Origin: Aquitalea magnusonii
GTDB lineage: Bacteria > Pseudomonadota > Gammaproteobacteria > Burkholderiales > Chromobacteriaceae
Length of the DNA stretch: 52,393 nucleotides
Assembly (NCBI RefSeq): GCF_003202035.1
Contig: NZ_QJKC01000021.1
Location: 1 to 52,393 of the forward strand
Reading direction: 5' to 3'
Shown here one piece after another: positions 3,204 through 23,327 of the stretch (the first letter of the stretch is position 1; each line of letters starts with the position of its first letter). The position numbers and the translations under genes were made by a program. The notes beneath the pieces are model-generated. The model worked only from the letters and a program-made list of their open reading frames with translations, had not been told where the DNA came from and did no database searches.

Positions 3204-3232
3204 AAAAACCCGGCGCAGCAAGCCGCGCCGGG
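3204..3232 (-). terminator. Intra-operon terminator/attenuator between livK and livF
   Basis: On the minus strand an 8-bp GC-rich stem (CCCGGCGC / GCGCCGGG, 3209-3232) is followed directly by TTTTT (3208-3204). It lies 20 nt after the livK stop and 36 nt before livF, so partial termination would make more binding protein than ATPase. Confidence 0.7.
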
Positions 3233-3251
3233 CGTGGACGGGCTCAGGCCA

Positions 3252-4586: not shown

Positions 4587-4648
4587 TATGGGTAAACTCC
4601 CTGGTTCAGTAGACGAAACTGCTAACGGAAACAACAAGACAAAAACAT

Positions 4649-5716: not shown

Positions 5717-5727
5717 GCGTATTCTCC

Positions 5728-6609: not shown

Positions 6610-6684
6610 CAGACAGCCCCCTTACAGGTCCCCGCCCCGCACGGGCAAGCTGGCGGGAACAAGGTGGATACGGATAAACAGGTT

Positions 6685-7467: not shown

Positions 7468-7489
7468 AGTGTTGTTTCCATTTCTTGAT

Positions 7490-8665: not shown

Positions 8666-8679
8666 CACCCTTGCTCCTG

Positions 8680-9783
8680 TCAGGCGGCTACGGCTTCGTG
8701 CTCTTTGGCGCGCGCTTCCAGCTCACGCACCAGCGGCAGCACTTTTTCGCCGAAGTAGGCCACTTCTTCCTGGAAGTGCAGGAAGCCGCCCAGCACCAGG
8801 TCCACTCCCACGGCCTTCAGCGCGACGATGCGCTCGGCAATCTGCTGCGGGGTGCCAATCAGATTGGTCTTGAAGCCGTCGTTGTACTGCACCAGGTCTT
8901 CAAAGGTGGACTTGGCCCAGTTGCCCTCGCCTTCCGGGCTGGCCTGACCGGCCTGCTTCACCGCATCGCCAAAGGCGTTGACGGCTTCCGGGTCGGCCTT
9001 GTCGATGATTTCGGCCAGCACGGCGCGGGCTTCTTCTTCGGTATCGCGGGCAATGATGAAGGCGTTGACGCCAATCTTGACCTGATGGCCGTTGACTGCT
9101 GCCTTGGCGCGGATGTCGTCCACCTGCGCCTTGATGCCTTCCACGGTATTGCCGTTGGTGAAGTACCAGTCGGACACACGCGAAGCCATGTCACGCGCAG
9201 CACGCGAGCTGCCACCCTGGAAGATTTCCGGGTGCGGCTGTTGCAGCGGTTTCGGCTTCAGGGTGTAGTCACTGAAGCGGTAGAAATCGCCCTTGAAGCT
9301 GAAGTTGTCCTGGGTCCAGATGCCCTTGAGCACGCGGATGAATTCTTCCGAACGGCGATAGCGTTCGTCATGCTCCAGCCACGGTTCGCCAATGGCGGTG
9401 AATTCGCCCTGGAACCAGCCGGAAACGATATTGACTGCCACGCGGCCGCCGGTGAGGTGGTCGATGGTGGCAATCTGCTTGGCCAGCACCGCCGGGGTCC
9501 ACGGGCCGGGCAGAATGGCGGCAATCACACGCAGTTTTTCGGTGGCGGCCAACAGCGCATGGCTGAAGGAAACCGACTCGTGCTGGTATTCCGCGCCATA
9601 ACCGGCGGTAAAGCGGATTTGCGACAGCGCATATTCAAAACCGGCCTTCTCGGCGATTTGCGCCAGTTTGCGGTTGTAGTCGATGTCCCAGCTGGTGCGC
9701 TGTTCGATCTTGCTGACCACCAGGCCACCGCTGACATTGGGTACCCAGTAGGCAAACTTGATGGCGTTTTGTGCTTGGCTCAT
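8680..9783 (-). CDS. sfnG: FMNH2-dependent dimethylsulfone monooxygenase SfnG
   Basis: 367 residues, luciferase-like TIM-barrel monooxygenase very similar to SfnG (N-terminal KFAYWVPNVSGGLVVSKIEQ, then TGGRVAVNIVSGWFQGEF). SfnG converts dimethylsulfone to methanesulfinate with FMNH2 and oxygen. The reduced flavin would come from MsuE, encoded directly upstream. It has no cysteine and only two methionines in 367 residues. GGAG precedes the ATG. Being second in a sigma-54 operon ahead of a Liv-type importer ties the importer to sulfone use. Confidence 0.92.
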   Translation of the reverse strand: MSQAQNAIKFAYWVPNVSGGLVVSKIEQRTSWDIDYNRKLAQIAEKAGFEYALSQIRFTAGYGAEYQHESVSFSHALLAATEKLRVIAAILPGPWTPAVLAKQIATIDHLTGGRVAVNIVSGWFQGEFTAIGEPWLEHDERYRRSEEFIRVLKGIWTQDNFSFKGDFYRFSDYTLKPKPLQQPHPEIFQGGSSRAARDMASRVSDWYFTNGNTVEGIKAQVDDIRAKAAVNGHQVKIGVNAFIIARDTEEEARAVLAEIIDKADPEAVNAFGDAVKQAGQASPEGEGNWAKSTFEDLVQYNDGFKTNLIGTPQQIAERIVALKAVGVDLVLGGFLHFQEEVAYFGEKVLPLVRELEARAKEHEAVAA

Positions 9784-9837: not shown

Positions 9838-10422
9838 TCAAACGGGGGCAGCGACGGCAGTATCTGTGCTGGCAATCACCGGCTGGCGGTGGCTGATCAG
9901 CGGCAAGGCGCGCTCCACCGCCAGACGGATGCGTGCCTGCAAGGCGCTAGCGCTGACCTGGTAATCGGTAAAGTCGGCCTCGGCGGCATAGATACCCAAT
10001 GGCAGGGTTTGTGCCTGGAAGAAGCTGAACAAGGGGCGCAGCTGATGTTCGATCACCAGCGCATGGCGCTCGCTACCACCGGTGGCAGCCAGTAGCACCG
10101 GCAGGTCGAACAGCGCTTCGTGATGCACGAAGTCAAAGAAATGCTTGAACAGACCGGTATAGCTGGCGCGGTAAACCGGGCTGGCGACAATCAGCAAATC
10201 GGCCTGTTCCACCGCCTGAATGGCTTCCCGCACGGATTCCGGTAAATCCGCCGGACGGGTGACGCCACCGTAGTGCGGGGCCAGCTCGCCCAGTTCGATC
10301 ACGCGGGCCTCAACTGGCAGATGGCCGGACAATTCCGCCAGCACGGCCTGCACCAGCGCCAGGGTGCGCGAGGGGCGCTGCAGACTGCCGGATACGGCAA
10401 CAACATTAAAAGAGTGGCTCAT
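9838..10422 (-). CDS. msuE: NADPH-dependent FMN reductase MsuE
   Basis: 194 residues with a flavodoxin-like fold: the FMN-phosphate loop is SGSLQRPSRT (about 11-20) and a second motif is ASPVYRASYTG. MsuE/SsuE-type enzymes reduce FMN for SfnG, MsuD and SsuD. The start at 10422 is chosen because GGAG precedes it and the fold begins at once. There is no cysteine and no internal methionine. It is the first gene of the operon and lies about 24 nt after the expected start of a sigma-54 transcript. Confidence 0.9.
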   Translation of the reverse strand: MSHSFNVVAVSGSLQRPSRTLALVQAVLAELSGHLPVEARVIELGELAPHYGGVTRPADLPESVREAIQAVEQADLLIVASPVYRASYTGLFKHFFDFVHHEALFDLPVLLAATGGSERHALVIEHQLRPLFSFFQAQTLPLGIYAAEADFTDYQVSASALQARIRLAVERALPLISHRQPVIASTDTAVAAPV

Positions 10423-10455
10423 GCTTGCTCCATCATCAGGGTTCTCCTGATACAT

Positions 10456-10471
10456 AGCAGCAAGCGTGCCA
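10456..10471 (-). promoter_or_regulatory. Sigma-54 promoter of the msuE-sfnG-liv operon
   Basis: Minus-strand TGGCACG-CTTG-CTGCT, with GG and GC separated by exactly 10 nt. The -24 element is perfect and the -12 element has one change from TTGCT. The transcript would start near 10446, shortly before msuE. Confidence 0.75.
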
Positions 10472-10529: not shown

Positions 10530-10545
10530 TGCTGCCGCACCAGCA
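10530..10545. promoter_or_regulatory. Candidate SfnR enhancer site (imperfect)
   Basis: TGCTGC-CGCA-CCAGCA, 11 of 12 palindrome positions. It is centred about 92 nt upstream of the predicted msuE transcript start and 27 nt from the perfect copy. Confidence 0.55.
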
Positions 10546-10556
10546 TGCTGACCGGC

Positions 10557-10572
10557 TGCTGCCTGGGCAGCA
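10557..10572. promoter_or_regulatory. Candidate SfnR enhancer site (perfect)
   Basis: TGCTGC-CTGG-GCAGCA, centred about 119 nt upstream of the predicted msuE start, a usual distance for a sigma-54 activator. The same arms and spacing recur at 14666 and 21893-21970. The remainder of 10423-10723 holds the promoter, these sites and the ssuA terminator, and no gene. Confidence 0.7.
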
Positions 10573-10654
10573 CCGGCAAAACCATGCAAAACAAAGCCGG
10601 ATTACTGATATGCAAAACGCATCAAAACCAAGACAAACAGCCCGCTTCCAATAC

Positions 10655-10685
10655 AAAAAAAGCACACCCCATAGGGTGTGCTTTT
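10655..10685 (-). terminator. Intrinsic terminator after ssuA
   Basis: A perfect 12-bp stem (arms 10658-10669 and 10674-10685, loop CATA) is followed on the minus strand by a run of T. It ends the ssuD-amidohydrolase-ssuA unit. Confidence 0.85.
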
Positions 10686-10723
10686 CATGATGAAGACGGT
10701 TGTCGGACCGGTCTGGCTTCAGC

Positions 10724-11686
10724 TTATTTGCCGTCCCACACGATGTCCTTCACCACCAGCGGCTTGGGAATCAGCTTCAGCTTGAAGAAGGTGTCGGCAA
10801 TGCGCTGCTGCTCTGCCACCACCTTGCCATCCAGCAGTTTCACGCCATAGCCGGAGCGCTTGGCAGCCACCTGTACAATGTCCTTGTCCAGGCCGATCTG
10901 GCTGGACAGCTCGGCCGCAACTTCCGGGATATGACTCTTGCCCCAGGCATCCAGCCGTTGCAGTTCTTCCAGCACCACCTTGATGACCTTGGGATTGCTG
11001 GCCACATAAGGCTTGCGTGCCAGGTAGAACTGGGTGTTGTTGACGATGCCCTTGCCGTCCGCCAGCTGGCGGGCATTCAGTTGCTTCTCGGCAGCGGCCA
11101 GGAAGGGGTCCCAAATCACCCAGGCATCCACGCTGCCCTGCTGGAAGGCGGCGCGGCCATCAGCCGGGTTGAGGAAGACCGGGGTGATGTCTTCGTATTT
11201 CAGCCCGGCTTTCTCCAGTGCGCGCACCAGCAGGTAATGCACATTGGAGCCCTTGTTCAGCGCCACGCGCTTGCCTTTGAGGTCTTTTACACTGCGGATG
11301 GGCGAATCCTTGCCCACCACGATGGCCTCGCCTTCCGGTGCGGCCGGTTCATTGGCCAGATACAACAGGTCGGCACCGGCTGCCTGGGCAAAGATGGGCG
11401 GGGTTTCACCGGTGGTGCCCAGGTCCACGCTACCCACGTTCAGCGCTTCCAGCAGCTGCGGGCCGCCGGGGAATTCTGCCCATTTCACCTTGACGCCCAG
11501 CGGGGCCAGGCGTTTTTCCAGCGTGCCCTGCGCTTTCAGCAGCACCAGCGTGCCGTATTTCTGATAACCGATATTCAGCGTGTCGCTGCCTGCAGCCAGC
11601 GCGGTGGCAGACAGCGAAGACAGCGCAAGGCCGGCAGCAGCCAGCAGGCCCAAGACACGCCGACGGGTGGGGTTGAAGTGTTGCAT
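10724..11686 (-). CDS. ssuA: Aliphatic sulfonate ABC substrate-binding protein (SsuA-like)
   Basis: 320 residues. A Tat-like signal is seen (TRRRVLGLLAAAGLAL, residues 7-22), cleaved near ATALAAG. The mature part begins LNIGYQKYG, the typical opening of SsuA proteins. They bind alkanesulfonates in the periplasm. It has no cysteine and no methionine after the first. AAGGAA precedes the ATG at 11686. It is the last gene of the ssuD unit, but no SsuB ATPase or SsuC permease is encoded in the window, so its transporter partners must lie elsewhere. The exact sulfonate is unknown. Confidence 0.87.
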   Translation of the reverse strand: MQHFNPTRRRVLGLLAAAGLALSSLSATALAAGSDTLNIGYQKYGTLVLLKAQGTLEKRLAPLGVKVKWAEFPGGPQLLEALNVGSVDLGTTGETPPIFAQAAGADLLYLANEPAAPEGEAIVVGKDSPIRSVKDLKGKRVALNKGSNVHYLLVRALEKAGLKYEDITPVFLNPADGRAAFQQGSVDAWVIWDPFLAAAEKQLNARQLADGKGIVNNTQFYLARKPYVASNPKVIKVVLEELQRLDAWGKSHIPEVAAELSSQIGLDKDIVQVAAKRSGYGVKLLDGKVVAEQQRIADTFFKLKLIPKPLVVKDIVWDGK

Positions 11687-11723
11687 CAGGATTCCTTGTT
11701 GTTTGCAGTATGAGTCTCTGGTT

Positions 11724-12566
11724 TTACAGGCCGAACAGGCGGGCGGCATTGCCGTACAGCACCTTGTCCAGCACATGGGGCCGCAGGCCCAGCCCTTGCA
11801 GATCGTCTATCGACTGGCTAATCGGCCGGAAGGGATAGGACGAACCAAACAGCAGCTGGTCGGCCATGAAGCCGTTGGCCGCCTCGATATACAACTGGCT
11901 GCCGGGCAGAAACTGGTACATGTCCGGCACCACCAGCACGTTTTCATGACGGAAGGCGATGCCGACAATCTCGGCCACCCGCGGCCAGTAGCCGTGGTAG
12001 CAAACAATGGGCAAGTGCGGGAAATCCGCCGCCACCCGTGCCACCCCGGCGGGGTCGTTGAAACGCGGGTCCGGCGTGGTGGGGCCGGACATCAGGAATA
12101 CCGGCACGCCCAGCGCGGCGCAGGTTTCATAGATGGGGTAGTACACCGCATCGTCCGGCTGGCGTGCCGGCACGCCAAAGCCCGGTTCGATATCAATACC
12201 GGCCAGGCCCAGTTGCTGGATGGCGCGTTCGGCCTCGGCCACCGCCGCTTGCTCGCCCTGCAAGGCCGGGTCCACCCCGGCAATACCCAGCAGGCTGTCA
12301 TGGCCGTGGACGATCTGGTGAATGGTGTCATTGGGCAGATGCTGGCCGGGCGTATGCCGCCCCACCACCACCGCGCGGCTCAGCCCGGCATGGGCCACTT
12401 CATTCAGGAAACCCTGCTGGGTGAGCGAGTTGACAAAGTGCTGGTCGTCACGCGAGCCCACGCGGCGGTTGAGCCAGCGCGCGGCTTCATAAGCCTGGGT
12501 GCCGGGCGAGGCACCAAAGAAGTCGTGCAGGAAGGCGGGCCTGCAACGCATGTCGATCACCTTCAT
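11724..12566 (-). CDS. Amidohydrolase-family protein with altered metal motif
   Basis: 280 residues of the ACMSD/amidohydrolase-2 type TIM barrel: GIDIEPGFG near 125, CYHGYWPR near 190, and a C-terminal [15 protein letters not shown]. The N-terminal D-x-H-x-H metal site of the family is replaced by DMRCRP (residues 5-10). A subfamily with RCRP is common, so it may use a different metal site or be decarboxylase-like. Its start overlaps the end of ssuD by 4 nt (ATGA), so the two are co-translated, which implies action on a product of sulfonate oxidation. The reaction is not known. Confidence 0.75.
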
Positions 12567-13714
12567 GCGGCCTCCGTTTCGGCCACGGTTTTCGTCACTA
12601 CGGTGCTGGCATCAAACGGGCCGCCGGTCTGCACGCGGTCGTCGCCATACACCCAGCGCTTGCCCGGCAACAGCGGGAATACCAGTTCGGCAAAGCGGTA
12701 AGCTTCTTCCAGATGCGGGTAGCCGGACAGGACAAAGCTGTCCACGCCCAGGTCGGCATATTCCTTCAGCCGCGCGGCCACGGTTTGTGCATCGCCCACC
12801 AGCGCGGTACCGGCACCGCCACGTACCAGGCCGACACCGGCCCACAGATTGGGGCTGACTTCCAGCTGGTCACGCTTGCCACCGTGCAGCGCGGCCATGC
12901 GACGCTGGCCTTCGGAATCCATTGCAGCAAAACGCTGCTGCACCTTGGCAATCACTTCGTCATCCAGATGGCTGATCAGCGCATTGGCCGCCGCCCAGGC
13001 TTGCTCGGTGGTTTCGCGCACAATCACATGCAGGCGCACGCCAAAGCGCACGGTGCGGCCCAGCTTGGCGGCGCGGGCGCGTACATCGGCAATTTTCTCG
13101 GCCACGGCTGCCGGGGGTTCGCCCCAGGTAAGGTAGGCTTCCACATGCTCGGCCGCCAGGTCGTGCGCAGCATTGGACGAGCCGCCAAAGTACAAGGGCG
13201 GAGCCGGTTTCTGCACCGGCTCGAAGAAGTTCTGCGCGTTTTCCACCGTATGGTATTGACCGGCGTAGTTGACGGTTTCGCCGGCCAGCAGACGTTTCCA
13301 GATATGCAGGAATTCGCTGGCTTCTTCGTAACGCTGGTCGTGATCGAGGAAAATGCCGTCGGCGGCCAGTTCGGCGGAATCGCCCCCTGCCACCACATTC
13401 AGCAGCAGACGGCCATTGCTGGCCTGGTCCAGCGTGGCGGCCATGCGCGCGGCAGCGGTGGGCTTGGTCAGCGCGGTGCGCAATGCCACCAACAGCTTCA
13501 GCCGACTGGTGACCGGCACCAGACTGGAGGCGGTCACCCACGGGTCCAGGCAGCCGCTGCCAGTGGGAATGAGGATGCCGTCGTAACCCAGATTGTCCGC
13601 CGCCACGGCAATCTGCCGCAGGTATTCGTTGCTGACGGCGCGGCCGGAGCCGGACTGGCCCAGATAACGGGTATCGCCGGAGGTCGGCAGAAACCAGAAA
13701 ATGTCGAGACTCAT
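12563..13714 (-). CDS. ssuD: FMNH2-dependent alkanesulfonate monooxygenase SsuD
   Basis: 383 residues, matching SsuD/MsuD length, with the luciferase-like barrel and the characteristic opening [19 protein letters not shown]. SsuD cleaves alkanesulfonates to the aldehyde and sulfite using FMNH2 and oxygen. The ATG at 13714 is preceded by AAGGAAG; an in-frame ATG nine codons earlier is less likely. Reduced flavin could come from MsuE (10 kb). First gene of a three-gene unit behind a TTTTCCTTGGTT box, divergent from a GntR gene that may control it. A cysteine and three internal methionines are present. Confidence 0.9.
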
Positions 13715-13817
13715 GCTGCTTCCTTTGCTGGCAGATTGCATGACGCCGCAGCGCGCCGCTGTGGCCGCTGTGGCATGAAGGTGATGGGCCGATTCTAGTC
13801 AGCGCCCTGCACTGCAC

Positions 13818-13834
13818 GAACCAAGGAAAACAGC
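13818..13834 (-). promoter_or_regulatory. TTTTyCTTGGTT box (copy 2) upstream of ssuD
   Basis: Minus strand GCTGTTTTCCTTGGTTC, about 105-120 nt before the ssuD start. A TAGAAT sequence lies about 20 nt downstream and could be the -10. Confidence 0.6.
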
Positions 13835-13859
13835 AAAGCAAATCAATTTAAGTCATAAC

Positions 13860-13871
13860 CTGTCATGACAG
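13860..13871. promoter_or_regulatory. Palindromic operator CTGTCATGACAG
   Basis: A perfect 12-bp palindrome sits in the ssuD-gntR divergent region, directly upstream of the gntR -10 element, where it would overlap the -35 region. The same palindrome occurs upstream of the tauD-like gene (19536). TGTC-N2-GACA half-sites fit the short inverted repeats bound by GntR/HutC proteins, so autoregulation is plausible. Confidence 0.6.
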
Positions 13872-13890
13872 CTTGCCCGGCGTTTGGGCT

Positions 13891-13896
13891 TATACT
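13891..13896 (+). promoter_or_regulatory. -10 element of the gntR promoter
   Basis: TATACT, about 30 nt before the gntR ATG. No good -35 is seen at 16-18 nt; the operator palindrome occupies that place. Confidence 0.4.
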
Positions 13897-13926
13897 CGGC
13901 GCAATCCAATCAAGCTCTGCCCGCTC

Positions 13927-14655
13927 ATGACCACATTAGCCACGCCCCAGGCCCTGCATGCCCGCATCCGCGAAAGCCTGCGCAGCCAGATTCTCAGCGG
14001 CCATTATGGCCAGCACGACAAACTGCCATCGGAAAAACAGCTGATGGAAAGCTTTGGCGTCAGCCGCATCACAGTGCGCCATGCGCTGGGCGCGCTGGAA
14101 CAGGAAGGCATGATCTTCCGCATTGCCGGCAAGGGCTGCTATGTAGCCAAGAGCAAACCCGCGCAGACCCTTACCCGGCTGCAAGGCTTTGCCGAGGCCA
14201 TGCACAGCCAGGGCTACGCCGCCTGCAACCGGGTGCTGAGCCTGCAAACCCTGCCCGCCAGCGAAACCGTGGCGCTGGCCTTTGGCGTGGCGGTGGGCAC
14301 GCCCATGGTGGAGCTGCGCCGCCTGCGCTATCTGGACAATCTGCCGGTGTCGCTGGACATCAGTTACTTCACCCAGGAGCTGGGCTTGCGGCTGGCGCGG
14401 GAAGACCTGGCCAGCCGGGATGTGTTTCATATTCTGGAAAATGACTACGGCCTGCCGCTGGGCCATGCCGACCTCAGCATAGAAGCCACACTGGCCAGCG
14501 CAGAAGAGGCGCAACTGCTGGACGTGACACCCGCTGCCCCGCTGCTGGCCTTGCAACGCATGACCCGTGGTGCCGATGGCGCCGGGCTGGAGCTGGACTT
14601 CATCCGCTACCGTGCCGACCGCTTCCGCTACCAGCTGCGGGTGGAGCGCAACTAA
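13927..14655 (+). CDS. GntR/HutC-family transcriptional regulator with UTRA domain
   Basis: 242 residues. The N-terminal winged helix (about 5-70) shows the GntR pattern LPSEKQLMESFGVSRITVRHA (33-53), followed by a UTRA effector-binding domain (about 90-235, with RLRYLDNLPVSLDISYF). UTRA regulators usually repress and are released by a small ligand. The start at 13927 is the first in-frame ATG that keeps the domain without extra residues. It is divergent from ssuD, and a perfect palindrome in the shared region is its likely operator. The SfnR-type enhancer for the next operon begins 11 nt after its stop codon. Confidence 0.88.
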   Translation: MTTLATPQALHARIRESLRSQILSGHYGQHDKLPSEKQLMESFGVSRITVRHALGALEQEGMIFRIAGKGCYVAKSKPAQTLTRLQGFAEAMHSQGYAACNRVLSLQTLPASETVALAFGVAVGTPMVELRRLRYLDNLPVSLDISYFTQELGLRLAREDLASRDVFHILENDYGLPLGHADLSIEATLASAEEAQLLDVTPAAPLLALQRMTRGADGAGLELDFIRYRADRFRYQLRVERN

Positions 14656-14665
14656 GCCAATACCC

Positions 14666-14681
14666 TGCTGCGCTGGCAGCA
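14666..14681. promoter_or_regulatory. Candidate SfnR enhancer site (perfect)
   Basis: TGCTGC-GCTG-GCAGCA, centred about 105 nt upstream of the predicted sigma-54 start of the sfnB pair. An inverted repeat in the opposite sense, CAGCAC-N4-GTGCTG, follows at 14688-14703. Confidence 0.7.
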
Positions 14682-14752
14682 GCCAGCCAGCACCGTTGTG
14701 CTGATTTACAGCAAAAAGCCGTGTTTAACGGCGCAAAACCACGCTTTTTGTC

Positions 14753-14768
14753 AGGCACGCTTATTGCC
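14753..14768 (+). promoter_or_regulatory. Sigma-54 promoter of the sfnB pair
   Basis: AGGCACG-CTTA-TTGCC with exact GG-N10-GC spacing. The predicted start is near 14779, 36 nt before the ATG at 14815. Confidence 0.75.
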
Positions 14769-14814
14769 ATTCCTGTGACATCCCCGGTTATCCGGACTTA
14801 CACAAGGAAACGCG

Positions 14815-16071
14815 ATGACGACCTCCCTGAGCGAGCAAGCTGCTGTGCGTGTCAACTCTCCCGAGCCTTTCGCCGCCCGCCCGCGCCCCACCACCCCGGC
14901 GCACATCATCCGTGACGATGCCGAAGCCATCGCCGTGGCGCGTCAGCTGGCCATCCGCTTTGCCCAGGGTGCCGCCCTGCGCGACCGCGAAGGCCTGCTG
15001 CCGCTGGCCGAAGTGGACGCCTACTCGCAAAGCGGGCTGTGGGGCATCAATGTGCCCAAGGCCTATGGCGGCGCTGGCGTGTCCTACGCCACGCTGGCCG
15101 AGGTGATCAAGATCATTGCCGAAGCCGACTCCAGCATCGCCCAGATCACCCAGAACCATCTGGCCATCAACCTGCATATCGCACTGGATGGCAGCGAGGC
15201 GCAAAAGCAGGAACTGTTCGGCCTGGTATTGCAGGGCTACCGCTTTGGCAATGCCTTCTCCGAACTCAACAGCAAGACCGTGGCCGCGTTTGAAACCCGC
15301 TATGCCCTCGATGGTGATACCGCCGTGGTGAATGGCGAGAAGTTCTACACCACCGGCGCGCTGCTGGCGCACATCGTGCCCATCGTGGCGGTGGGTGAGG
15401 ACGGCCTGGGCGCACTGGTATTTGCCGACCGCGACACCCCGGGGCTGAGCGTGATCAACAACTGGTCCAGCTTTGGCCAGCGCACCACCGCCTCCGGTGG
15501 CGTGAAGATAGAACAGGTCCGGGTACCGGCCAGCCGCGTGCTGCCGATTGCCGCCTTCGACACCCCCACCGTGGCCGGGCCGGTGTCGCAAATCATCCAG
15601 GCCGCCATTGACGGCGGCATCGCCCGCGCCGCGCTGGCCGACACCATCGAGTTCATCCGTTCGCAAAGCCGCCCCTGGCTGGATAGCGGCAAGGACAAGG
15701 CCGCCGACGACCCGTTTACCGTCTCCGCCATCGGCCTGCTGGAAATCCGCCTGCATGCTGCCGAGGCGCTGCTGGAAAAGGCCGGCCGCCTGATCGACGC
15801 CGCCCTGGCCCAGCCGGATGAAAGCAGCGTGGCACTGGCCACCGTTGCCACCGCTGAAGCCAAGGTGCTGACCACCGAAATTGCCATTGAGGCCAGCAAC
15901 AAGCTGTTCGAACTGGCCGGCACCCGCGCCACGCTGATTGCCCACAACCTGGACCGCCACTGGCGCAATGCCCGCGTGCACACCCTGCACGACCCGGTGC
16001 GCTGGAAATACTTCCACATCGGCAACTACTACCTGAACCACATTGCGCCGCCGCGCCATCCGTGGAACTAA
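14815..16071 (+). CDS. sfnB: SfnB-family sulfur-acquisition flavoprotein (acyl-CoA dehydrogenase fold)
   Basis: 418 residues with the acyl-CoA dehydrogenase fold: N-terminal helices, the NVPKAYGGAGVSYATLAEVI segment near 77-96, the beta domain with NGEKFYTTGAL, and the C-terminal DRHWRNARVHTLHDPVRWKY shared by SfnB and DszC. Such enzymes use reduced flavin to oxidise sulfur compounds, or support dimethylsulfone use; the exact reaction of SfnB is not settled. It has no cysteine at all and only the initiator methionine. A good ribosome site (CAAGGAAAC) precedes the ATG. First of two genes behind a sigma-54 promoter. Confidence 0.88.
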   Translation: MTTSLSEQAAVRVNSPEPFAARPRPTTPAHIIRDDAEAIAVARQLAIRFAQGAALRDREGLLPLAEVDAYSQSGLWGINVPKAYGGAGVSYATLAEVIKIIAEADSSIAQITQNHLAINLHIALDGSEAQKQELFGLVLQGYRFGNAFSELNSKTVAAFETRYALDGDTAVVNGEKFYTTGALLAHIVPIVAVGEDGLGALVFADRDTPGLSVINNWSSFGQRTTASGGVKIEQVRVPASRVLPIAAFDTPTVAGPVSQIIQAAIDGGIARAALADTIEFIRSQSRPWLDSGKDKAADDPFTVSAIGLLEIRLHAAEALLEKAGRLIDAALAQPDESSVALATVATAEAKVLTTEIAIEASNKLFELAGTRATLIAHNLDRHWRNARVHTLHDPVRWKYFHIGNYYLNHIAPPRHPWN

Positions 16072-16077
16072 AACATC

Positions 16078-16100
16078 ACCGGCAGTGCAGCACTGCCGGT
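16078..16100 (+). other. Perfect hairpin between the two sfnB-like genes
   Basis: A 10-bp stem ACCGGCAGTG / CACTGCCGGT with a 3-nt loop starts 7 nt after the first stop codon. No T run follows, so it is more likely an mRNA processing or stability element than a terminator. Confidence 0.55.
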
Positions 16101-16130
16101 ATTCGCCCAATCGCCAAACAGGAAACAACC

Positions 16131-17363
16131 ATGAGCCAACACACCCTGCCGGACGACCTGTCCACCGGCACCGACTACGAAACCCTGGCCCAGCGCTTTC
16201 GCCCCATCTTTGCCGAAATCGCCCAGACCGCCCTGCAACGCGAACGCGAACGCAAGCTGCCCTACGAGCCGATCAACTGGCTGAAACAGGCCGGTTTTGG
16301 CGCGGTGCGCGTGCCCAAGCAATATGGCGGCGCCGGTGCCTCGCTGCCGCAGCTGTTCCAGCTGCTGGTGGAGCTGGCAACGGCGGACTCCAACCTGCCG
16401 CAAGCGCTGCGCGGCCATTTCGCCTTTGTCGAAGACCGCCTGAATGCCCCGGCAAGCCCGGAACGCGCAGTCTGGTTCAAGCGCTTTGTGGCCGGAGAAA
16501 TTGTCGGCAATGCCTGGACCGAAATCGGCGAAGTGGCGGTGGGTGAGGTGATTACCCGCGTCAGCCGCCAGGGCGACAAATTGCTGCTCAATGGCCGCAA
16601 GTTCTACAGTACCGGCAGCATTTTTGCCGACTGGATCGACGTCTACGCCCAGGTGGATGGCAGCAATCAGGACGTGATTGCCGCCATCCGCACCAGTGAC
16701 CCCGGCGTGACACAAAGCGACGACTGGGACGGCTTTGGCCAGCGCACCACCGGCAGCGGCAGCACCGTGTTTGAAAACGTGACGGTGGAAGCGGAAAACC
16801 TGATCGACTTTGCCAGCCGCTTCAAATACCAGACCGCCTTCTACCAGCTGGTATTGCTGGCGGTACTGGCCGGCATCGGCAAGGCGGTGGAGCGTGATGT
16901 GGCGCAGCAGGTGCGCGACAGAAAGCGCGTATTCAGCACCGGCAATGCCAGCAGCGTGAGTCAGGATGCGCAAATCCAGCAGGTGGTGGGCGAAATCTCC
17001 GCCCTGGCCTATGCCGCCGAAGCCACCGCCATTCGCGCCGCCCACCCGGCCCAGCGCGCTTATGAAGCCCGTTTTGGCAACGATGCCGCGCGCGAACGCC
17101 AGGCTAATATCGACGCCGAGCTGGAGTCGGGCAAGGCGCAGATTGTGGTATCCGAACTGGTATTGCGTGCCGCCACCCAGCTGTTCAACGCGCTGGGCGC
17201 ATCGTCGGCCCGCGCCGAACTGCTGCTGGACCGCCACTGGCGCAATGCCCGCACCGTGGCATCGCACAATCCGCTGATCTACAAGGCGCGCATTGCCGGT
17301 GACTGGGCCATCAACGGCACCGAACCACCTTATGTCTGGCAGATTGGCCGCGGCAAGGCCTGA
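16131..17363 (+). CDS. SfnB/DszC-like flavoprotein monooxygenase (acyl-CoA dehydrogenase fold)
   Basis: 410 residues with the same fold as the preceding gene but clearly diverged (VRVPKQYGGAGASLPQLF near 63-80, NGRKFYSTGSIF, then DRHWRNARTVASHNPLIYK). It has zero cysteines and zero internal methionines in 410 residues, an extreme sulfur-sparing composition. The ATG at 16131 is preceded by AGGAAA; longer frames read back into the previous gene. It probably oxidises a sulfur compound with reduced flavin, perhaps with a partner reductase such as MsuE. Ends before a strong terminator. Confidence 0.85.
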   Translation: MSQHTLPDDLSTGTDYETLAQRFRPIFAEIAQTALQRERERKLPYEPINWLKQAGFGAVRVPKQYGGAGASLPQLFQLLVELATADSNLPQALRGHFAFVEDRLNAPASPERAVWFKRFVAGEIVGNAWTEIGEVAVGEVITRVSRQGDKLLLNGRKFYSTGSIFADWIDVYAQVDGSNQDVIAAIRTSDPGVTQSDDWDGFGQRTTGSGSTVFENVTVEAENLIDFASRFKYQTAFYQLVLLAVLAGIGKAVERDVAQQVRDRKRVFSTGNASSVSQDAQIQQVVGEISALAYAAEATAIRAAHPAQRAYEARFGNDAARERQANIDAELESGKAQIVVSELVLRAATQLFNALGASSARAELLLDRHWRNARTVASHNPLIYKARIAGDWAINGTEPPYVWQIGRGKA

Positions 17364-17387
17364 TGGTTTTGTGCGTTGGACAATGAC

Positions 17388-17411
17388 AAGGCCCGCGTTT
17401 GCGGGCCTTTT
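17388..17411 (+). terminator. Intrinsic terminator after the sfnB pair
   Basis: A 9-bp stem AAGGCCCGC / GCGGGCCTT with loop GTTT is followed by TT, 25 nt after the stop codon. Confidence 0.85.
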
Positions 17412-17563
17412 GCATGGATGTCATCCGTAAAATCTGCAGCGCTAATCCATGAGCAGAAAACCGGTACAGAACAGGCCCTGCAGCTTGACGCCGCCAATGT
17501 CACCGCCATCACAGAAATCCTGGCAACACATAACGCATCAGCTGGCAAGCACCATCCTGACAC

Positions 17564-17585
17564 ATCCCCATGCATGGGGATTTTT
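17564..17585. repeat. 18-bp perfect palindrome with a T run; region 17412-17643 otherwise empty
   Basis: ATCCCCATGCATGGGGAT (17564-17581) is followed by TTTTT. It could be a second terminator for plus-strand transcription. The surrounding 230 nt show no convincing gene. Confidence 0.5.
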
Positions 17586-17643
17586 CCTGCAGATTCCTGC
17601 CCGCCACCTGCAGCAGGTTTTGCAGCCACATCTGCGCCGGCAC

Positions 17644-17669
17644 AAAAAAAACCGGGTCAACAGACCCGG
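17644..17669 (-). terminator. Intrinsic terminator after lsfA
   Basis: Minus-strand stem CCGGGTC / GACCCGG (17652-17669) is followed by eight T residues, about 60 nt after the lsfA stop. Confidence 0.85.
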
Positions 17670-17727
17670 CATGAAGAAGAGACATGCAAGAAGGAGAAAC
17701 AGAGACAACGGAACTACAGACAACACA

Positions 17728-18363
17728 TCAAACCGGTTGTGGCGTCAGGCGCAGATAGGGCCGTACCGCACGGTAACCCTGGGGAAACTTTTCACGGATC
17801 AGCGCTTCATCCTGCAAGGAAGGCACAATCACCACTTCCTCACCCTGCTGCCAGTTGGCTGGCGTGGCCACGCTGTGGTGGTCGGTCAGTTGCAGGGAGT
17901 CGATCACCCGCAGGATTTCGGCAAAATTGCGGCCGGTACTGGCCGGGTAGGTAATGATCAACCGCACCTTGTGTGCGGGATCGATGATGAACAGCGAACG
18001 CACGGTATGGGTGCTGCTGGCATTGGGGTGAATCAGGTCGTAGGCCTCGGACACCTTGCGGTCGGCATCCGCCACGATGGGAAAATTCACCTGGGTCTGC
18101 TGGGTGTCGTTGATATCGGCAATCCAGCCATGGTGGGCTTCCACCGGGTCTACCGACAGCGCCAGCACCTTGACATTGCGGCGGGCAAACTCCTGCTGCA
18201 ACTTGGCCGTGGCACCCAGTTCGGTGGTGCACACCGGGGTGTAGTCGGCCGGGTGGGAAAACAGCACGGCCCAGCTGTCACCCTTCCACTGATGGAAGTT
18301 CAGTTCGCCAATGGTGGATTGCTGGCGGAAATCCGGAGCAAGGTCGCCAAGTCGCAGAGTCAT
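17728..18363 (-). CDS. lsfA: 1-Cys peroxiredoxin (LsfA/Prx6 type)
   Basis: 211 residues, Prx6 length. The peroxidatic cysteine is C45 in PVCTTE (43-48), preceded by SHPADYTP. It is the only cysteine, and the initiator is the only methionine. LsfA is known in Pseudomonas as a peroxidase induced by sulfate starvation; the placement here among organosulfur genes and behind the common promoter box agrees. It would remove peroxides formed by uncoupled flavin monooxygenases. AAGGAAAG precedes the ATG at 18363. Confidence 0.9.
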   Translation of the reverse strand: MTLRLGDLAPDFRQQSTIGELNFHQWKGDSWAVLFSHPADYTPVCTTELGATAKLQQEFARRNVKVLALSVDPVEAHHGWIADINDTQQTQVNFPIVADADRKVSEAYDLIHPNASSTHTVRSLFIIDPAHKVRLIITYPASTGRNFAEILRVIDSLQLTDHHSVATPANWQQGEEVVIVPSLQDEALIREKFPQGYRAVRPYLRLTPQPV

Positions 18364-18426
18364 GCTGCTTTCCTTTATGGTGTGATTGCGTGATGGGCTT
18401 ACTGTAAGCACTGCCACAGCGGCCGT

Positions 18427-18442
18427 GAACCAAGGAAAACTG
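18427..18442 (-). promoter_or_regulatory. TTTTyCTTGGTT box (copy 3) upstream of lsfA
   Basis: Minus strand CAGTTTTCCTTGGTTC, 64-79 nt before the lsfA start; nearly identical to copies 1 and 2. Confidence 0.6.
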
Positions 18443-18561
18443 CGTTGCTTATCAAGCCATGGCTGGATAAGCCAGCGCAAAGCTGCATAAGCCGCGTGGT
18501 TTACACAGCAACAGGGGCAGCCCCTGCGAACTGCCCCTGGTGGAGATACAAACGGCGCCGA

Positions 18562-19497
18562 CTACTGCTGGCTGATGATGGTGCCGGCAGGCTGCGGGCC
18601 GTGCTCCAGATAGGCCGACACGCGCTCACCCCAGCGCTCGAAGGGGTAGTAATCCCAGATGGCGTGGTGCTGGGTGGCCCAGTTGTCCCACAACAGCAGC
18701 ATGTCCGCTTGCCAGTGAATGCGCGCCTGGAAGGACTGGTGTTTTTCGATATGGCGATACAACAGCTGCAATAGCGCATCGCTTTCGGCACGGCTCAGCT
18801 GCACGATGTGCGAAGTAAACGCTTCATTGACAAACAAAAAGGGGCGACCACTGAGCGGATGTTTTGCCACCACCGGGTGTTCGCTGGCATTGAATACCTG
18901 ACCGGGCTTGGGTTCGGCGCCATAGCCATTGCTCCAGCCTTCCCGCCCGTCATGTACCGCAGTCAGCCCCAGCAGCAGTTGCTTGATGGGATCGGACAAG
19001 GATTCATACGCCAGATAAAGGTTGGCAAAAGCGGTGTCACCACCGCCCACTTCCGGCAGGCGGGTGACGCGCAGCAAGGACGCCCAGATCGGATGCGGGT
19101 CGCAAGAAACATCGTTATGCCAGGCATCGCCTGCGGTGTAACGGGTGGTGCGGCCGGTTTTCCAGCCCAGGATTTCCGCATCGCCACTGCGTGCAGTCAG
19201 CTGGGTGCTGTCGCCCAGCACATGCTGGTGCAGGCTGCCAAACAGACGGCCAAAGGCCTTGTGTTGCTCGGCATTGATGGCCTGTCCGGGAAAGGTGAGT
19301 ACCAGATGTTCGGTCAGCGCCTGACGGATTTCTGCCAGCTGGGCAGGCGGCAGTGGCTGGCTGAGGTCCACACCACGAATTTCCGCCCCCAGGGCCGGGG
19401 ACAGCCGCTTGAGGTCGAAAGTCTGGTACTGGGTCAGTTCGCGGGTGTTCCAGCCCTCAATGGCCAGCTTGTCGTTGTAATCCTGATAAAAGCTCAT
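18562..19497 (-). CDS. TauD/AtsK-family 2-oxoglutarate dioxygenase
   Basis: 311 residues of the TauD/TfdA family. Iron ligands are H127-x-D129 (AWHND); the distal histidine and the 2-oxoglutarate arginine lie in the C-terminal segment ATQHHAIWDYYPFERWGER. The family oxidises the carbon next to a sulfonate (taurine) or sulfate ester (AtsK), releasing sulfite or sulfate. The sequence does not separate the two. It has one cysteine and one internal methionine. It is a single-gene unit with the common promoter box about 105 nt upstream and the CTGTCATGACAG palindrome 39-52 nt upstream of the start. Confidence 0.87.
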   Translation of the reverse strand: MSFYQDYNDKLAIEGWNTRELTQYQTFDLKRLSPALGAEIRGVDLSQPLPPAQLAEIRQALTEHLVLTFPGQAINAEQHKAFGRLFGSLHQHVLGDSTQLTARSGDAEILGWKTGRTTRYTAGDAWHNDVSCDPHPIWASLLRVTRLPEVGGGDTAFANLYLAYESLSDPIKQLLLGLTAVHDGREGWSNGYGAEPKPGQVFNASEHPVVAKHPLSGRPFLFVNEAFTSHIVQLSRAESDALLQLLYRHIEKHQSFQARIHWQADMLLLWDNWATQHHAIWDYYPFERWGERVSAYLEHGPQPAGTIISQQ

Positions 19498-19535
19498 CCT
19501 GGCAGCCTCTCAAAGCAAGGGGAATGAAAACACGG

Positions 19536-19549
19536 CCTGTCATGACAGG
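19536..19549. promoter_or_regulatory. Palindromic operator CCTGTCATGACAGG
   Basis: A perfect 14-bp palindrome containing the CTGTCATGACAG seen at 13860. It lies between the presumed promoter and the start codon of the tauD-like gene, where a bound repressor would block transcription. Candidate second target of the GntR protein. Confidence 0.6.
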
Positions 19550-19599
19550 ACATAACCATGTGCATGCAATGGATAATAAAAAACCATGTCCACATTCCC

Positions 19600-19615
19600 A
19601 ACCAAGAAAAACCGG
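19600..19615 (-). promoter_or_regulatory. TTTTyCTTGGTT box (copy 4) upstream of the tauD-like gene
   Basis: Minus strand CCGGTTTTTCTTGGTT. Apart from this box, the palindrome and the ribB terminator, the interval 19498-19840 shows no gene. Confidence 0.6.
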
Positions 19616-19789
19616 ATTGCTTATTCCTGCTGTCGCAAGGGTTATTGGCTCAGCCTTGCAGCCAGAGCATGCTGCGGATGGAAAAAAACGCAGCCACCGT
19701 CGCCGCCAGCAAACTGACCGCGCACAAGCCTTGTGGTCATATGGCAGCCCGATGCAGGGGCAGAGCCGCATCAGCGGCGCGGCATCAAA

Positions 19790-19815
19790 ACAAAAACACC
19801 CGCCGTAGCGGGTGT
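19790..19815 (-). terminator. Intrinsic terminator after ribB
   Basis: Minus-strand stem ACACCCGC / GCGGGTGT (19796-19815, loop TACG) is followed by TTTTTG, 26 nt after the ribB stop. Confidence 0.85.
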
Positions 19816-19840
19816 GATAAAGCATACCGGCCAGACCGGA

Positions 19841-20521
19841 TCAGGCTGGCACGCCCTCAGGTACAGCGGCTGCCAGCGCCGCCATTTCGGTTCGCTCGCG
19901 ATAGGCAATCAGGTCGGCAATGGTGATGATGGGCAGGCCGTGCTGACGGGCAAAGTTCCGCAATTCCGGGCGGCGCGCCATGCTGCCATCGTCATTGACG
20001 ATTTCGCACAGCACCCCCGCCGGGGCCAGGCCAGCCAGCCGCGACAGGTCCAGTGCCGCCTCGGTATGGCCCGGACGCGCCAGCACACCGCCCGGCGCAT
20101 AACGCAGCGGGAAGATATGCCCAGGCCGGGCAAAGTCGCTGGCCGGAATGCGGCTGTCCGCCAATGCCCGCAACGTGGCGGCGCGGTCGGCCGCGCTGAT
20201 GCCGGTACTGGTGCCGTGCAGGTAATCCACCGTCACGGTGAATGCGGTGCGCTGCGATTCATTATTGCTGCTCACCATCAGCGGCAATTGCAGCTGGTCC
20301 AGCCGCTCGCCGGTCAGCGCCACGCACACCACGCCACTGCTGTAGCGCACCAGGAAGGCCATTTGCTGCGGGGTGATTTTTTCAGCGGCAATGATCAGGT
20401 CGCCTTCGTTTTCACGGTCGGTGTCATCCACCACCACGGCAAAGCCACCGGCGGCAATGGCGGCAATGGCTTGTTCCACACTGTCAAAATCGTCTTCAAC
20501 TGCTGGCAGGTTCTGGGTCAT
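19841..20521 (-). CDS. ribB: 3,4-dihydroxy-2-butanone 4-phosphate synthase RibB
   Basis: 226 residues. The catalytic acidic loop DRENEGDL is at 35-42 and the second motif is [15 protein letters not shown]. It makes the four-carbon precursor of riboflavin from ribulose 5-phosphate. This is a stand-alone RibB without a GTP cyclohydrolase II domain, and no riboflavin operon lies nearby. It starts 8 nt after the stop of an SfnB/DszC-like gene, behind the same sigma-54 promoter, so it probably serves as an extra FMN supply for the flavin monooxygenases. No FMN riboswitch is seen upstream. Confidence 0.92.
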
Positions 20522-20529
20522 CTTGGCTC

Positions 20530-21711
20530 TCAGGAATAAAACGAGGGGGTCGGGTACTGGCCATTCAGTGCCCAGTCACCCAGCTCTTGCAGCTTGTAAT
20601 CCAGCGGGTCGTGCAGGCTGTGCACGCGCAAATTGCGCCAGAAGCGGTCCAGCCGCAGTGCGGCGCTGGTGGAGCGTGCGCCGGTTACATCGAAAATGCG
20701 GCTGGTCAGGTCCAGTCCGCTGCGGCTGGCATGCACCTTGGCGGCGGCAATCTGCAGGGCCAGCTGGCCGCGGCCTGCCTCATCCAGCGCCTCGCCCTGC
20801 TGCCAGGCTTCATCCAGCTGGCGACCCGCGTGGTCGGCCAGCACACGCGCACCTTCCAGTGCAGCCTGGAATTCGCCGTAATGCAGCAGGGTGTAAGGGT
20901 CCTTGCTGGCAGTTGTTGCCAGCGAGGCGGGCCACAGGCGGCGCTGCTCCAGCGTGTAGCGCCGGGCTTCGGCCATCGCCCCTTCGGCAATGCCCAGATA
21001 GATATTGGTGAGAATCAGCTGGGCAATCAGCGGACGCAGGCAGGCGCGTGGCGTGGATAGCGGGCCGGGTTGCAGCAGCAGCTCGTCCGCCCTCACCCGT
21101 ACCTGCTCGAAACGGGCAGAGCCGCTATCGGTCTGGCGCTGGCCGATATTGTCCCAGTCCTGATGAATGTGCACGCCTTCCCGAGCGGTGGGGATGACGG
21201 CAATCAGCAAACCACCCTGCCCGGCGCGCAAGGCCGAGGCCAGCAGCATGTCCGAATCGGTGGCGCCGGAGCAGAAGCTCTTGTCACCATGAAAGCGATA
21301 ACCGTCGCCATCCGGCGTGGCCAGCGTGCGGGTATCCAGCGGATTGAGTGCATTACCCCAGAACCAGCGCTCACGCGCGGTCTGCTCGAACCAGGGCTGC
21401 CATTGGTCGGGCCGGCCGAACAGCTGGGCCGTGGCCAACAGCAAGTGCTGGAAGGCAAACACATGGGCCACCGAGCTATCCACCCGTGCCAGTTCACGCA
21501 CAATCTGCAAGGTAGTGCTCCAGCTTTCGCCCAGTCCGCCAAATTCACGCGGAATGATCAGGCCAAGCAGGCCGCTGTCACGCAATGCATCGCGCTCGGC
21601 CTTGGGGGTGCCGCCTTGCTGGTCACGCGCAATGGCTGTGCGGGCAAAACGGCTGGCCAGTTCGCGGGCAATGGCCAGCGGGCTGTCGGGCGCAATGGAT
21701 GAATCAGCCAT
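20530..21711 (-). CDS. SfnB/DszC-like flavoprotein monooxygenase (acyl-CoA dehydrogenase fold)
   Basis: 393 residues. Domain landmarks are [20 protein letters not shown] near 51-70, [35 protein letters not shown] and the C-terminal [19 protein letters not shown] with the ending PTPSFYS. The [12 protein letters not shown] pattern is typical of DszC-like flavin-dependent sulfur oxygenases. The ATG at 21711 is chosen for its GGGAGG ribosome site. It is divergent from a close paralogue (22119) and followed at once by ribB. A sigma-54 promoter with three enhancer-like sites lies upstream. Confidence 0.86.
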
Positions 21712-21837
21712 GCTGCCTCCCGCTCTGACGATACGGCTGGTGGCCAGATGAAACATTTTTGCTGCTGAATAAATGAATAAGCATGAGATTACCTGCGGCT
21801 GAAATTAAACCGGGTGCGGTTTTGCCAGATAGGCATT

Positions 21838-21853
21838 AGCAGATTGCATGCCA
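21838..21853 (-). promoter_or_regulatory. Sigma-54 promoter of the SfnB/DszC-like gene and ribB
   Basis: Minus-strand TGGCATG-CAAT-CTGCT with exact GG-N10-GC spacing; the -12 half is the same as in the msuE promoter. The expected start is near 21828, giving a leader of about 115 nt. Confidence 0.65.
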
Positions 21854-21892
21854 GCCAATTCAGCCTTATTCATGCTGAATCCGGCCAGATAT

Positions 21893-21908
21893 TGCTGCTG
21901 TAGCAGCA
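21893..21908. promoter_or_regulatory. Candidate SfnR enhancer site (perfect), site 1 of 3
   Basis: TGCTGC-TGTA-GCAGCA inside a 20-bp near-palindrome (21891-21910). Centred about 73 nt upstream of the predicted minus-strand start. Confidence 0.7.
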
Positions 21909-21924
21909 ATTCATTCATCAGCAC

Positions 21925-21940
21925 TGCTGCGTACACAGCA
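21925..21940. promoter_or_regulatory. Candidate SfnR enhancer site (one mismatch), site 2 of 3
   Basis: TGCTGC-GTAC-ACAGCA, 11 of 12 positions, 32 nt from site 1 (about three helical turns). Confidence 0.6.
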
Positions 21941-21954
21941 GCCAATAAACACGG

Positions 21955-21970
21955 TGCTGCACCAGCAGCA
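21955..21970. promoter_or_regulatory. Candidate SfnR enhancer site (perfect), site 3 of 3
   Basis: TGCTGC-ACCA-GCAGCA, 30 nt from site 2. The regular spacing puts the three sites on roughly one face of the helix. No real gene is seen in 21712-22118. Confidence 0.7.
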
Positions 21971-22118: not shown

Positions 22119-23327
22119 TTGAACCTGCCCCACCACCTGCTGGCACCCTCGCCCACCGCCAGCACTCCGGCTTCGGCCTTGCTGCTGGCGCAGCAACTGG
22201 CTGCCCAGTTTGCGGCTACCGCAGCAGAGCGCGACCACGCCGGCGGCACGCCCAAGGCAGAACGCGATGCCATTCGCGCCAGCGGCCTGCTGGGCCTGTC
22301 CATTGCCAGCGAACTGGGCGGCCTGGGTGCCAACTGGCAGCAAACCCTGCTGGTGGTGCGCGAGTTTGCCAAGGCCGACAGTTCGGTAGCGCATGTATTT
22401 GCCTTTCATCACCTGATGCTGGCCACGGTGGAGCTGTTCGGCCAGCCCGAGCAGTGGCAGCCCTGGCATGAAATCACCACCCGGCAAAACTGGTTCTGGG
22501 GCAATGCCCTCAACCCGCTGGATGAGCGCACCATCAGCCGCCGCTTTGACGGCTGGTACGAGTTTTCCGGGCAGAAAAGCTTTTGCTCCGGTGCGCTGGA
22601 TTCGCAAATGCTGGTGGTTTCCGCCCGCCAGCAGCACAGCGGGCAGTTGGTGGTGGCCGCCATTCCCACCGGCCGCAGCGGCATCAGCGTGCAGCAGGAC
22701 TGGAACAATATCGGCCAGCGCCAGACCGACAGCGGCAGCGTGAATTTCGAGAAAGTACGCATTGAAAACAATGAAGTGCTGGACCAGCCCGGCCCGCTCA
22801 CCACGCCACGCTCCTGCCTGCGGCCACTGCTGGCACAGCTGATTCTCACCAATATTTACCTGGGCATTGCCGAAGGCGCGTTCGAGGAGGCCCGGCACTA
22901 CACCTTGCACGAGGCGCGCCCCTGGCGGGCGGCACAGGTGGACCACACTCACGAAGACCCCTACATCCTGGGCCATTACGGCGAGTTCTGGGTGGGGCTG
23001 GAGAGCGTGCGCGCCCTCACCGACCGTGCCGGTAACAGCATGGTGGCGGCGCTGGCACGCGGCGAGGCACTGACACAGGACGAGCGTGGCGAAGTGGCCA
23101 TGCACATTGCCGCGGCCAAGGTGGCCGCCACCCGGATGGGCCTGAACCTGGCCTGTCAGATGTTCGAGGTCACCGGCGCGCGCGCCACCCATGCCGGACT
23201 GCGTCTGGACCGGCACTGGCGTAATTTGCGCACCCACACCTTGCACGATCCGGTTGATTACAAATTAAAGGAGTTAGGGGAATGGGCTTTGATTCGCAAC
23301 TATCCGACACCGACGTTTTATTCCTGA
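22119..23327 (+). CDS. SfnB/DszC-like flavoprotein monooxygenase (acyl-CoA dehydrogenase fold)
   Basis: 402 residues, a close paralogue of the divergent gene at 20530: [68 protein letters not shown] and the ending PTPTFYS. The start is TTG at 22119 with AAAGG nine nt upstream; an ATG at 22111 opens only a three-codon frame (Met-Asn-Ala-stop) whose TGA overlaps the TTG. In-frame stops rule out an earlier start. Its end overlaps the start of sfnR by 46 nt, so the enzyme and the activator are translated from one message. Confidence 0.85.
   Translation: MNLPHHLLAPSPTASTPASALLLAQQLAAQFAATAAERDHAGGTPKAERDAIRASGLLGLSIASELGGLGANWQQTLLVVREFAKADSSVAHVFAFHHLMLATVELFGQPEQWQPWHEITTRQNWFWGNALNPLDERTISRRFDGWYEFSGQKSFCSGALDSQMLVVSARQQHSGQLVVAAIPTGRSGISVQQDWNNIGQRQTDSGSVNFEKVRIENNEVLDQPGPLTTPRSCLRPLLAQLILTNIYLGIAEGAFEEARHYTLHEARPWRAAQVDHTHEDPYILGHYGEFWVGLESVRALTDRAGNSMVAALARGEALTQDERGEVAMHIAAAKVAATRMGLNLACQMFEVTGARATHAGLRLDRHWRNLRTHTLHDPVDYKLKELGEWALIRNYPTPTFYS

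Follow-up and report, generated by a model that had tools for sequence, protein, structure and literature searches.

A predicted SfnR enhancer at sigma-54 promoters in Aquitalea magnusonii and its clade-linked variants

We analyzed a contig of Aquitalea magnusonii (NZ_QJKC01000021.1, positions 1 to 52,393; this whole stretch of 52,393 nucleotides is called the window) that encodes the sigma-54 activator SfnR. A palindrome, TGCTGC-N4-GCAGCA, lies upstream of sigma-54-type elements at three transcription units of the window, and on sequence grounds it is very probably the enhancer, i.e., the upstream activating sequence (UAS), of SfnR. An earlier note on this DNA had proposed such an enhancer at three loci; the proposal is supported by a conserved footprint within the genus and by recurrence of the site at the same genes in SfnR-bearing lineages. 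Comparison of these lineages also suggests that the arms differ by SfnR clade. One Pseudomonas clade (type 1), with the sequence NQVH in its helix-turn-helix (HTH) domain, goes with TGTTGC-N4-GCAACA, while the window SfnR and another Pseudomonas paralogue (type 2), with NQ[VL]Q, go with TGCTGC-N4-GCAGCA. These forms are denoted T/A and C/G, respectively, after the bases at positions 3 and 14.

Palindromes and sigma-54 elements in the window

A pattern search located perfect copies of the palindrome at 10557..10572 (minus strand; TGCTGCCCAGGCAGCA in the msuE direction), 14666..14681 (plus strand, directly past the stop of a GntR-family gene at 14655), 21893..21908 (minus) and 21955..21970 (minus). 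One-mismatch copies were found at 10530..10545 (minus; TGCTGGTGCGGCAGCA), 27 nt from the perfect copy at 10557, and at 21925..21940 (minus), so that all six lie where the earlier note had placed them. Position 10527 is an overlapping alternative register of the 10530 copy. The note had also described the arms and the 4-nt spacer as constant, which is true of spacer length but not of spacer sequence (CTGG, GCTG, TGTA and ACCA).

Each of the three units has a -24/-12 element of the GG-N10-GC type, again at the positions proposed earlier. These are TGGCACGCTTGCTGCT before msuE-sfnG (10456..10471, minus; 11/12 consensus), AGGCACGCTTATTGCC before a pair of sfnB genes (14753..14768, plus; 10/12) and TGGCATGCAATCTGCT before a DszC-like gene and ribB (21838..21853, minus; 10/12). 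The start-to-start distances between palindrome and element are 74 and 101 nt at msuE, 87 nt at sfnB, and 55, 87 and 117 nt at the DszC-like gene. The transcript start is expected about 27 nt beyond the start of such an element, and adding this value roughly yields the position 70 to 135 nt upstream that had been claimed for the palindromes. In clusters, neighboring copies are 27 to 33 nt apart, or about three helical turns; those at 21893, 21925 and 21955 are separated by steps of 32 and 30 nt.

We aligned the upstream regions with those of genus relatives (4 sequences for msuE, 7 for sfnB and 8 for the DszC-like gene, window included). Over six sites, invariant columns made up 68/72 of the arms, 7/24 of the spacers and 248/482 of the other positions, and the sigma-54 core columns were invariant in 26 of 27 cases. 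The arms were thus far better conserved than the spacers (rank test P 1.2e-11, with alignment columns that are not independent), which contradicts the notion that the repeats arose by chance. The 10557 copy is retained in L113 and L118, and in L117 with a different spacer. The arms of the 14666 copy are unchanged across 6 relatives and those of the 21893 copy are kept in 7, where the spacer is variable; the 21925 copy is perfect in L114, L117 and L119. A dimeric DNA-binding protein leaves this kind of trace in alignments: arms that stay fixed and a spacer that drifts in sequence but not in length.

The whole genome (4,405,446 bases) contains 20 perfect palindromes, 5 of which fall within 11.7 kb here (binomial P 1.9e-9 for an interval chosen post hoc, or about 7e-7 after scan correction). 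When up to two mismatches were allowed, the window held 36 copies, compared with 12.97 +/- 3.40 in 100 shuffles. The fifth perfect window copy, overlooked by the earlier note, is located at 22180..22195 within a second DszC-like open reading frame (ORF; 22119-23327). Because its spacer, TGGC, is identical in all 7 genus relatives, this copy is probably a coding coincidence, and we did not adopt it as a fourth enhancer. Among the 15 copies outside the window, 14 lie within mechanical ORFs of at least 222 amino acids and a single one is intergenic; the palindrome is thus not common at other intergenic sites. Had it been common there, the earlier note would have counted its proposal as refuted. 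Non-coding copies account for 4/5 in the window and 1/15 outside (Fisher P 0.005). In this count we take the 10557 copy as non-coding. The mechanical msuE ORF (275 amino acids) extends to a GTG at 10665, crossing both the promoter and the palindrome, but counted from a start at 10440 the match to the msuE family sets in at residue 12, and the promoter element lies in between.

SfnR clades and site types in other genera

The sfnR gene (23282..24451, plus) codes for a protein with the Sigma54_activat AAA+ domain (PF00158, 6.6e-70), a GAFTGA loop visible in the alignment and a Fis-type C-terminal HTH (PF02954, 2e-5; 24.7 bits, cut-off 22), as the earlier note had read it. Pfam gave no domain for residues 1-53 and found no receiver domain. 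The gene is linked to msu and sfn genes: a DszC/MsuC-like gene overlaps it, and msuE, sfnG and sfnB are in the window. In a class-wide search, SfnR matches were obtained in 3/369 genomes, own genome counted, and in Pseudomonas, the genus of G428, matches at E 1e-115 or better were present in 75/119 genomes.

In a protein tree, in which no experimentally studied SfnR is included by name, the SfnR group was separated from 7 own-genome activators (support 100/99). The window clade, together with the family relative G033, is sister to the Pseudomonas SfnR of the msu operon, i.e., type 1 (joint support 100/97), and the type 2 clade lies outside both.

Across 44 SfnR-related loci, 26 strong sigma-54 elements (at least 10/12) were found upstream of homologues of the window genes. 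The pattern TGYTGC-N4-GCARCA was present near 19 of them with up to two mismatches, near 14 with up to one and near 7 with none. Scored singly at up to two and up to one mismatches, TGTTGC gave 18 and 11, and TGCTGC 9 and 3. For 300 random arms the means were 0.28 and 0.003 and the maxima 11 and 1; these arms were non-degenerate, the test pattern being degenerate at one position per arm. Among 90 permutations of TGCTGC, itself included (mean 0.53 at two mismatches), TGCTGC ranked first with 9 and the next scored 7. An Erwinia metagenome-assembled genome (MAG) carries the perfect window form of the palindrome, and in Cupriavidus L035 msuE is preceded by TGTTGCCGGCGCAACA and by an element that reaches only 8/12.

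The sfnG gene was found in 7 of 14 genomes searched, in none of them near sfnR. Four of these seven Pseudomonas sfnG loci combine a strong element with a T/A dyad at -102 to -116, perfect in three and with one mismatch in the fourth, and the only two perfect TGTTGC-N4-GCAACA copies of G428 are at msuE and sfnG. Six genomes of the Pseudomonas set contain 91 perfect TGYTGC-N4-GCARCA copies, 31 of which were inspected with their flanks. Four of the 31 had an element of at least 10/12 inside 200 nt; three of these lie at msuE or have an sfnR at a distance of up to about 15 kb, and the fourth is a hybrid dyad in G485.

We then typed the sites upstream of sigma-54 elements with positions 3 and 14 left free and at most one mismatch elsewhere. 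The counts include overlapping registers and the coding copy, and the remainder contains likely chance matches; L192, which has both paralogues, and L115 were left out of the first set. C/G was found in 44/52 sites at 7 loci of the window genus and in 12/17 sites at 10 type 2 loci, which had no T/A site. By locus, 8 of the 10 type 2 loci had a C/G site. Conversely, the 29 type 1 loci gave T/A in 13/21 sites and no C/G.

For a hold-out, the rule and the prediction were written down before 20 further loci were fetched. The 17 type 1 loci yielded 22 sites, i.e., 15 T/A (4 perfect), seven others and no C/G, and the three type 2 loci yielded 5 sites, of which 3 were C/G, all perfect, and none T/A. 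On average, permuted arms produced 2.3 composite sites, compared with 27 observed. Of 13 genomes examined that have both paralogues, 9 had a scorable site beside each (G428, G475, G485, G490, G502, G504, G516, G521 and G538), and in all 9 the type 2 paralogue was accompanied by C/G and the type 1 paralogue by T/A; G485 follows the rule only through one-mismatch sites, and G485 and G516 were scored with the TGY/GCAR pattern. The other four (G438, G440, G463 and G508) had no scorable site on at least one side.

In the window genus, in G033 and in type 2, the HTH reads NQ[VL]Q and IS precedes the recognition helix; Erwinia has NQLQ and VS at these places, and both type 1 and Cupriavidus have NQVH and L[ST]. 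A rule based on the recognition helix itself (Ala or Thr in R[A/T]RL) was discarded, as it fails in G451: this SfnR reads RNVVRAR, and 100 nt separate a 9/12 element from the single copy that is perfect and of the symmetric T type (TGTTGC...GCAACA). The Gln/His difference at NQ[VL][QH] fits the site types better than the recognition helix does but, being linked to clade, need not be their cause. The C/G arms would be the likelier ancestral state, since they are found in the window clade, type 2 and the Erwinia MAG. We lean toward an orthogonal enhancer code of the SfnR paralogues, in which type 1 would have switched to T/A by one symmetric base-pair change per half-site, alongside the HTH changes NQ[VL]Q to NQVH and IS to L[ST], so that the two organosulfur regulons would be kept apart where the paralogues coexist.

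In one Pseudomonas type 2 cluster (L225:659-10507), the perfect TGCTGC-N4-GCAGCA palindrome occurs four times within 10 kb, in each case 67 to 101 nt before a 9-11/12 sigma-54 element, next to monooxygenase-like, TonB-receptor-like and amidohydrolase genes.

Competing explanations and proposed regulation

Another regulator of sulfur genes, either the adjacent GntR or a LysR of the CysB/Cbl type, might bind the palindrome, with its placement near sigma-54 elements being incidental. The GntR gene stops 11 nt before the 14666 copy, and CysB controls sfnR in Pseudomonas putida according to the title of a paper. This explanation is nevertheless unlikely. No gntR match was found in the fetched flanks of the site-bearing Pseudomonas and Erwinia SfnR loci, the rest of those genomes not having been searched for gntR, and we rejected GntR as a general binder because the sites persist in such flanks. 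Moreover, 18 of the 28 T/A sites of type 1 loci are positioned 98 to 102 nt from the element, and the arms co-vary with SfnR clade.

Still less likely is the use of the palindrome by a sigma-54 activator of the same genome other than SfnR. The genome has 12 further SfnR-related matches, and the one intergenic copy outside the window (C17:48777) is followed, 119 nt downstream, by the 12/12 sigma-54 element of an NtrC-type promoter. However, the next-best relative scores 253 bits versus 859 for SfnR, and 7 of the 12 relatives were placed in the tree, all outside the SfnR group. A separate GCAC-N7-GTGC site accounts for the NtrC-type promoter and is present with at most one mismatch in 12/12 homologues (at -100 to -102 in 10, and at -90 and -65 in the remaining two); the palindrome is perfect in 3/12, and we did not adopt C17:48777 as an additional SfnR target. 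An own-genome scan with TGGCAC-N6-TGCW gave 101 matches (11 for a reversed-pattern control) and was not used in the analysis.

The same promoter precedes a candidate sigma-54/NtrC-driven small RNA (L014:1620-1776, i.e., G000:C17:48896-49052), with the 12/12 element TGGCACGCTGTTTGCT and the NtrC-type site at -101. The stretch has no plus-strand ORF of at least 80 amino acids, contains a conserved block with CGCCAGTCTGCAAAGGAGAAAACAGAGCGGC and a terminator-like hairpin, and has DNA matches in nine genus relatives as well as in G014 and G018; no Rfam match was obtained at gathering scores.

That a genome rich in CTG/GCA produced the repeats by chance is hardly credible: most outside copies do sit in long ORFs and certain permuted arms also yield composite sites, but the clustering with its footprint pattern, the recurrence in other genera and the hold-out result all argue otherwise.

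Several observations weigh against SfnR as the binder or against the generality of the site. Counting the 10557 copy as coding by the mechanical-ORF criterion reduces the non-coding window copies to 3/5 (P 0.03), and the related genomes in our comparisons are not independent. Seven of the 26 strong elements lack a site within two mismatches, including the sfnG promoter in L212. Among the seven sfnG loci described above, L260 carries a hybrid, TGCTGCTCAGGCAACA, followed by a 10/12 element after about 100 nt, and L261 and L266 have no site beside a strong element. G033 displays hybrid or degraded sites, with one T/G site in the typing, and four outlying loci gave mixed pairs (C/A 3, C/G 1, T/G 1 and T/A 1). 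A T/A site was detected in just 10/29 type 1 loci of the first set and 10/17 of the hold-out, the remaining 7/17 having none at the threshold. The permuted arm TGNTCG produced 14 composite sites against the 27 observed, all with one mismatch and scattered over loci. Finally, no GG-N10-GC or other sigma-54 element was seen by eye upstream of the sfnR operon, and because of this the operon may have a different type of promoter and another regulator. Upstream of this operon, the block ATATATTCCTGATAAATCCTTGGTTTACA (22021-22049) is near-invariant in 8 genus sequences.

If the palindrome is the SfnR enhancer, the properties of the activator family suggest how it would operate. SfnR dimers would occupy one to three palindromes in the region from about -75 to -135, with some three helical turns between stacked copies, and looping of the DNA would bring them to the sigma-54 RNA polymerase waiting at the -24/-12 element. 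The GAFTGA-bearing AAA+ motor would then open the promoter through ATP hydrolysis. The three units would be co-induced, i.e., msuE-sfnG (perhaps with the liv genes), the sfnB pair, and the DszC-like gene with ribB, so that desulfurization enzymes, flavin supply (msuE, ribB) and perhaps uptake genes would be induced jointly. As SfnR has no receiver domain detected by Pfam, its level is the likely signal, probably set by sulfur-starvation control of the sfnR operon.

The first unit comprises msuE, for an FMN reductase (9838..10440, minus; TIGR03566, 254.6 bits, cut-off 212.5), and sfnG, for a dimethylsulfone monooxygenase (8680..9783, minus; TIGR04021, 645.8 bits, cut-off 382.95). Downstream, same-strand genes (2413..8668, minus) include three Liv/Urt-like ABC components, all below curated cut-offs: UrtB-like (5728-6609), LivM-like (4649-5716) and LivF-like (2413-3168). 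The ORFs 7490-8668 and 3252-4697 had no profile match at 1e-20. The second unit consists of sfnB (14815..16071, plus; TIGR04022, 606.4 bits, cut-off 430.9) and another SfnB-family gene (16062..17363, plus; 287.9 bits, below the equivalog cut-off). In the third, a DszC/SfnB-like monooxygenase gene (20530..21756, minus; NF043015, 376.9 bits, below the cut-off of 850) is accompanied by ribB, for DHBP synthase (19841..20521, minus; PF00926, 4.5e-86). The DszC/MsuC-like gene that overlaps sfnR (22119..23327, plus) scores below its curated cut-off. The GntR-family regulator and SsuA-, SsuD- and TauD-type genes are also in the neighborhood.

Genus relatives have a fourth candidate unit (L116:5642-5883, L118:5710-5951 and L117:14163), in which a one-mismatch palindrome stands 101 nt before an 11-12/12 sigma-54 element and a further SfnB-family gene with about 58% identity to the window SfnB.

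Relation to known systems

For a sulfur-starvation regulon, the palindrome offers an operator that can be scored in the sequences of several genera, and it predicts the SfnR paralogue in charge of a given organosulfur cluster. The clade-linked arm swap suggests a readable regulatory code for sulfur scavenging from sulfones and sulfonates. If true, one symmetric base-pair change and a few HTH residues would make a compact natural example of how a sigma-54 activator, once duplicated, diverges in enhancer specificity.

The earlier note called the enhancer new, which holds at most for the C/G form of the arms: already established are SfnR2 of Pseudomonas aeruginosa and, for P. putida, the activation of sfnFG and sfnA by SfnR with sigma-54 (PMC8234197, PMC13352529). 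Among the literature matches listed, titles and abstract openings mention no SfnR consensus, C/G dyad or paralogue split; the T/A dyad may have been published before.

The P. putida SfnR and P. aeruginosa SfnR2 systems resemble that of the window in activator family, kind of target gene and promoter class. Many msuE and sfnG promoters of Pseudomonas have the T/A dyad, mostly 98 to 117 nt upstream, whereas the window genus has TGCTGC/GCAGCA arms, palindromes stacked two or three deep at two of the three units, and the DszC-like gene with ribB among its targets. Pseudomonas type 2, with the helix SRNIVRARLEKIG, shares the C/G arms and the 16-bp geometry with the window. There, the sigma-54 element is 101 to 137 nt from the site and reads divergently from sfnR, next to genes for alkanesulfonate-monooxygenase-like proteins and a TonB receptor (both below curated cut-offs) and an amidohydrolase; in the tree, however, the window SfnR is nearer the msu-operon clade.

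The UAS of NifA is TGT-N10-ACA and the site of NtrC is GCAC-N7-GTGC. As here, these are dyads of similar length, used by activators with a Fis-type HTH upstream of -24/-12 promoters. Their arm sequences differ from those of the palindrome, with the C/G arms not fitting TGT-N10-ACA and the T/A arms fitting it.

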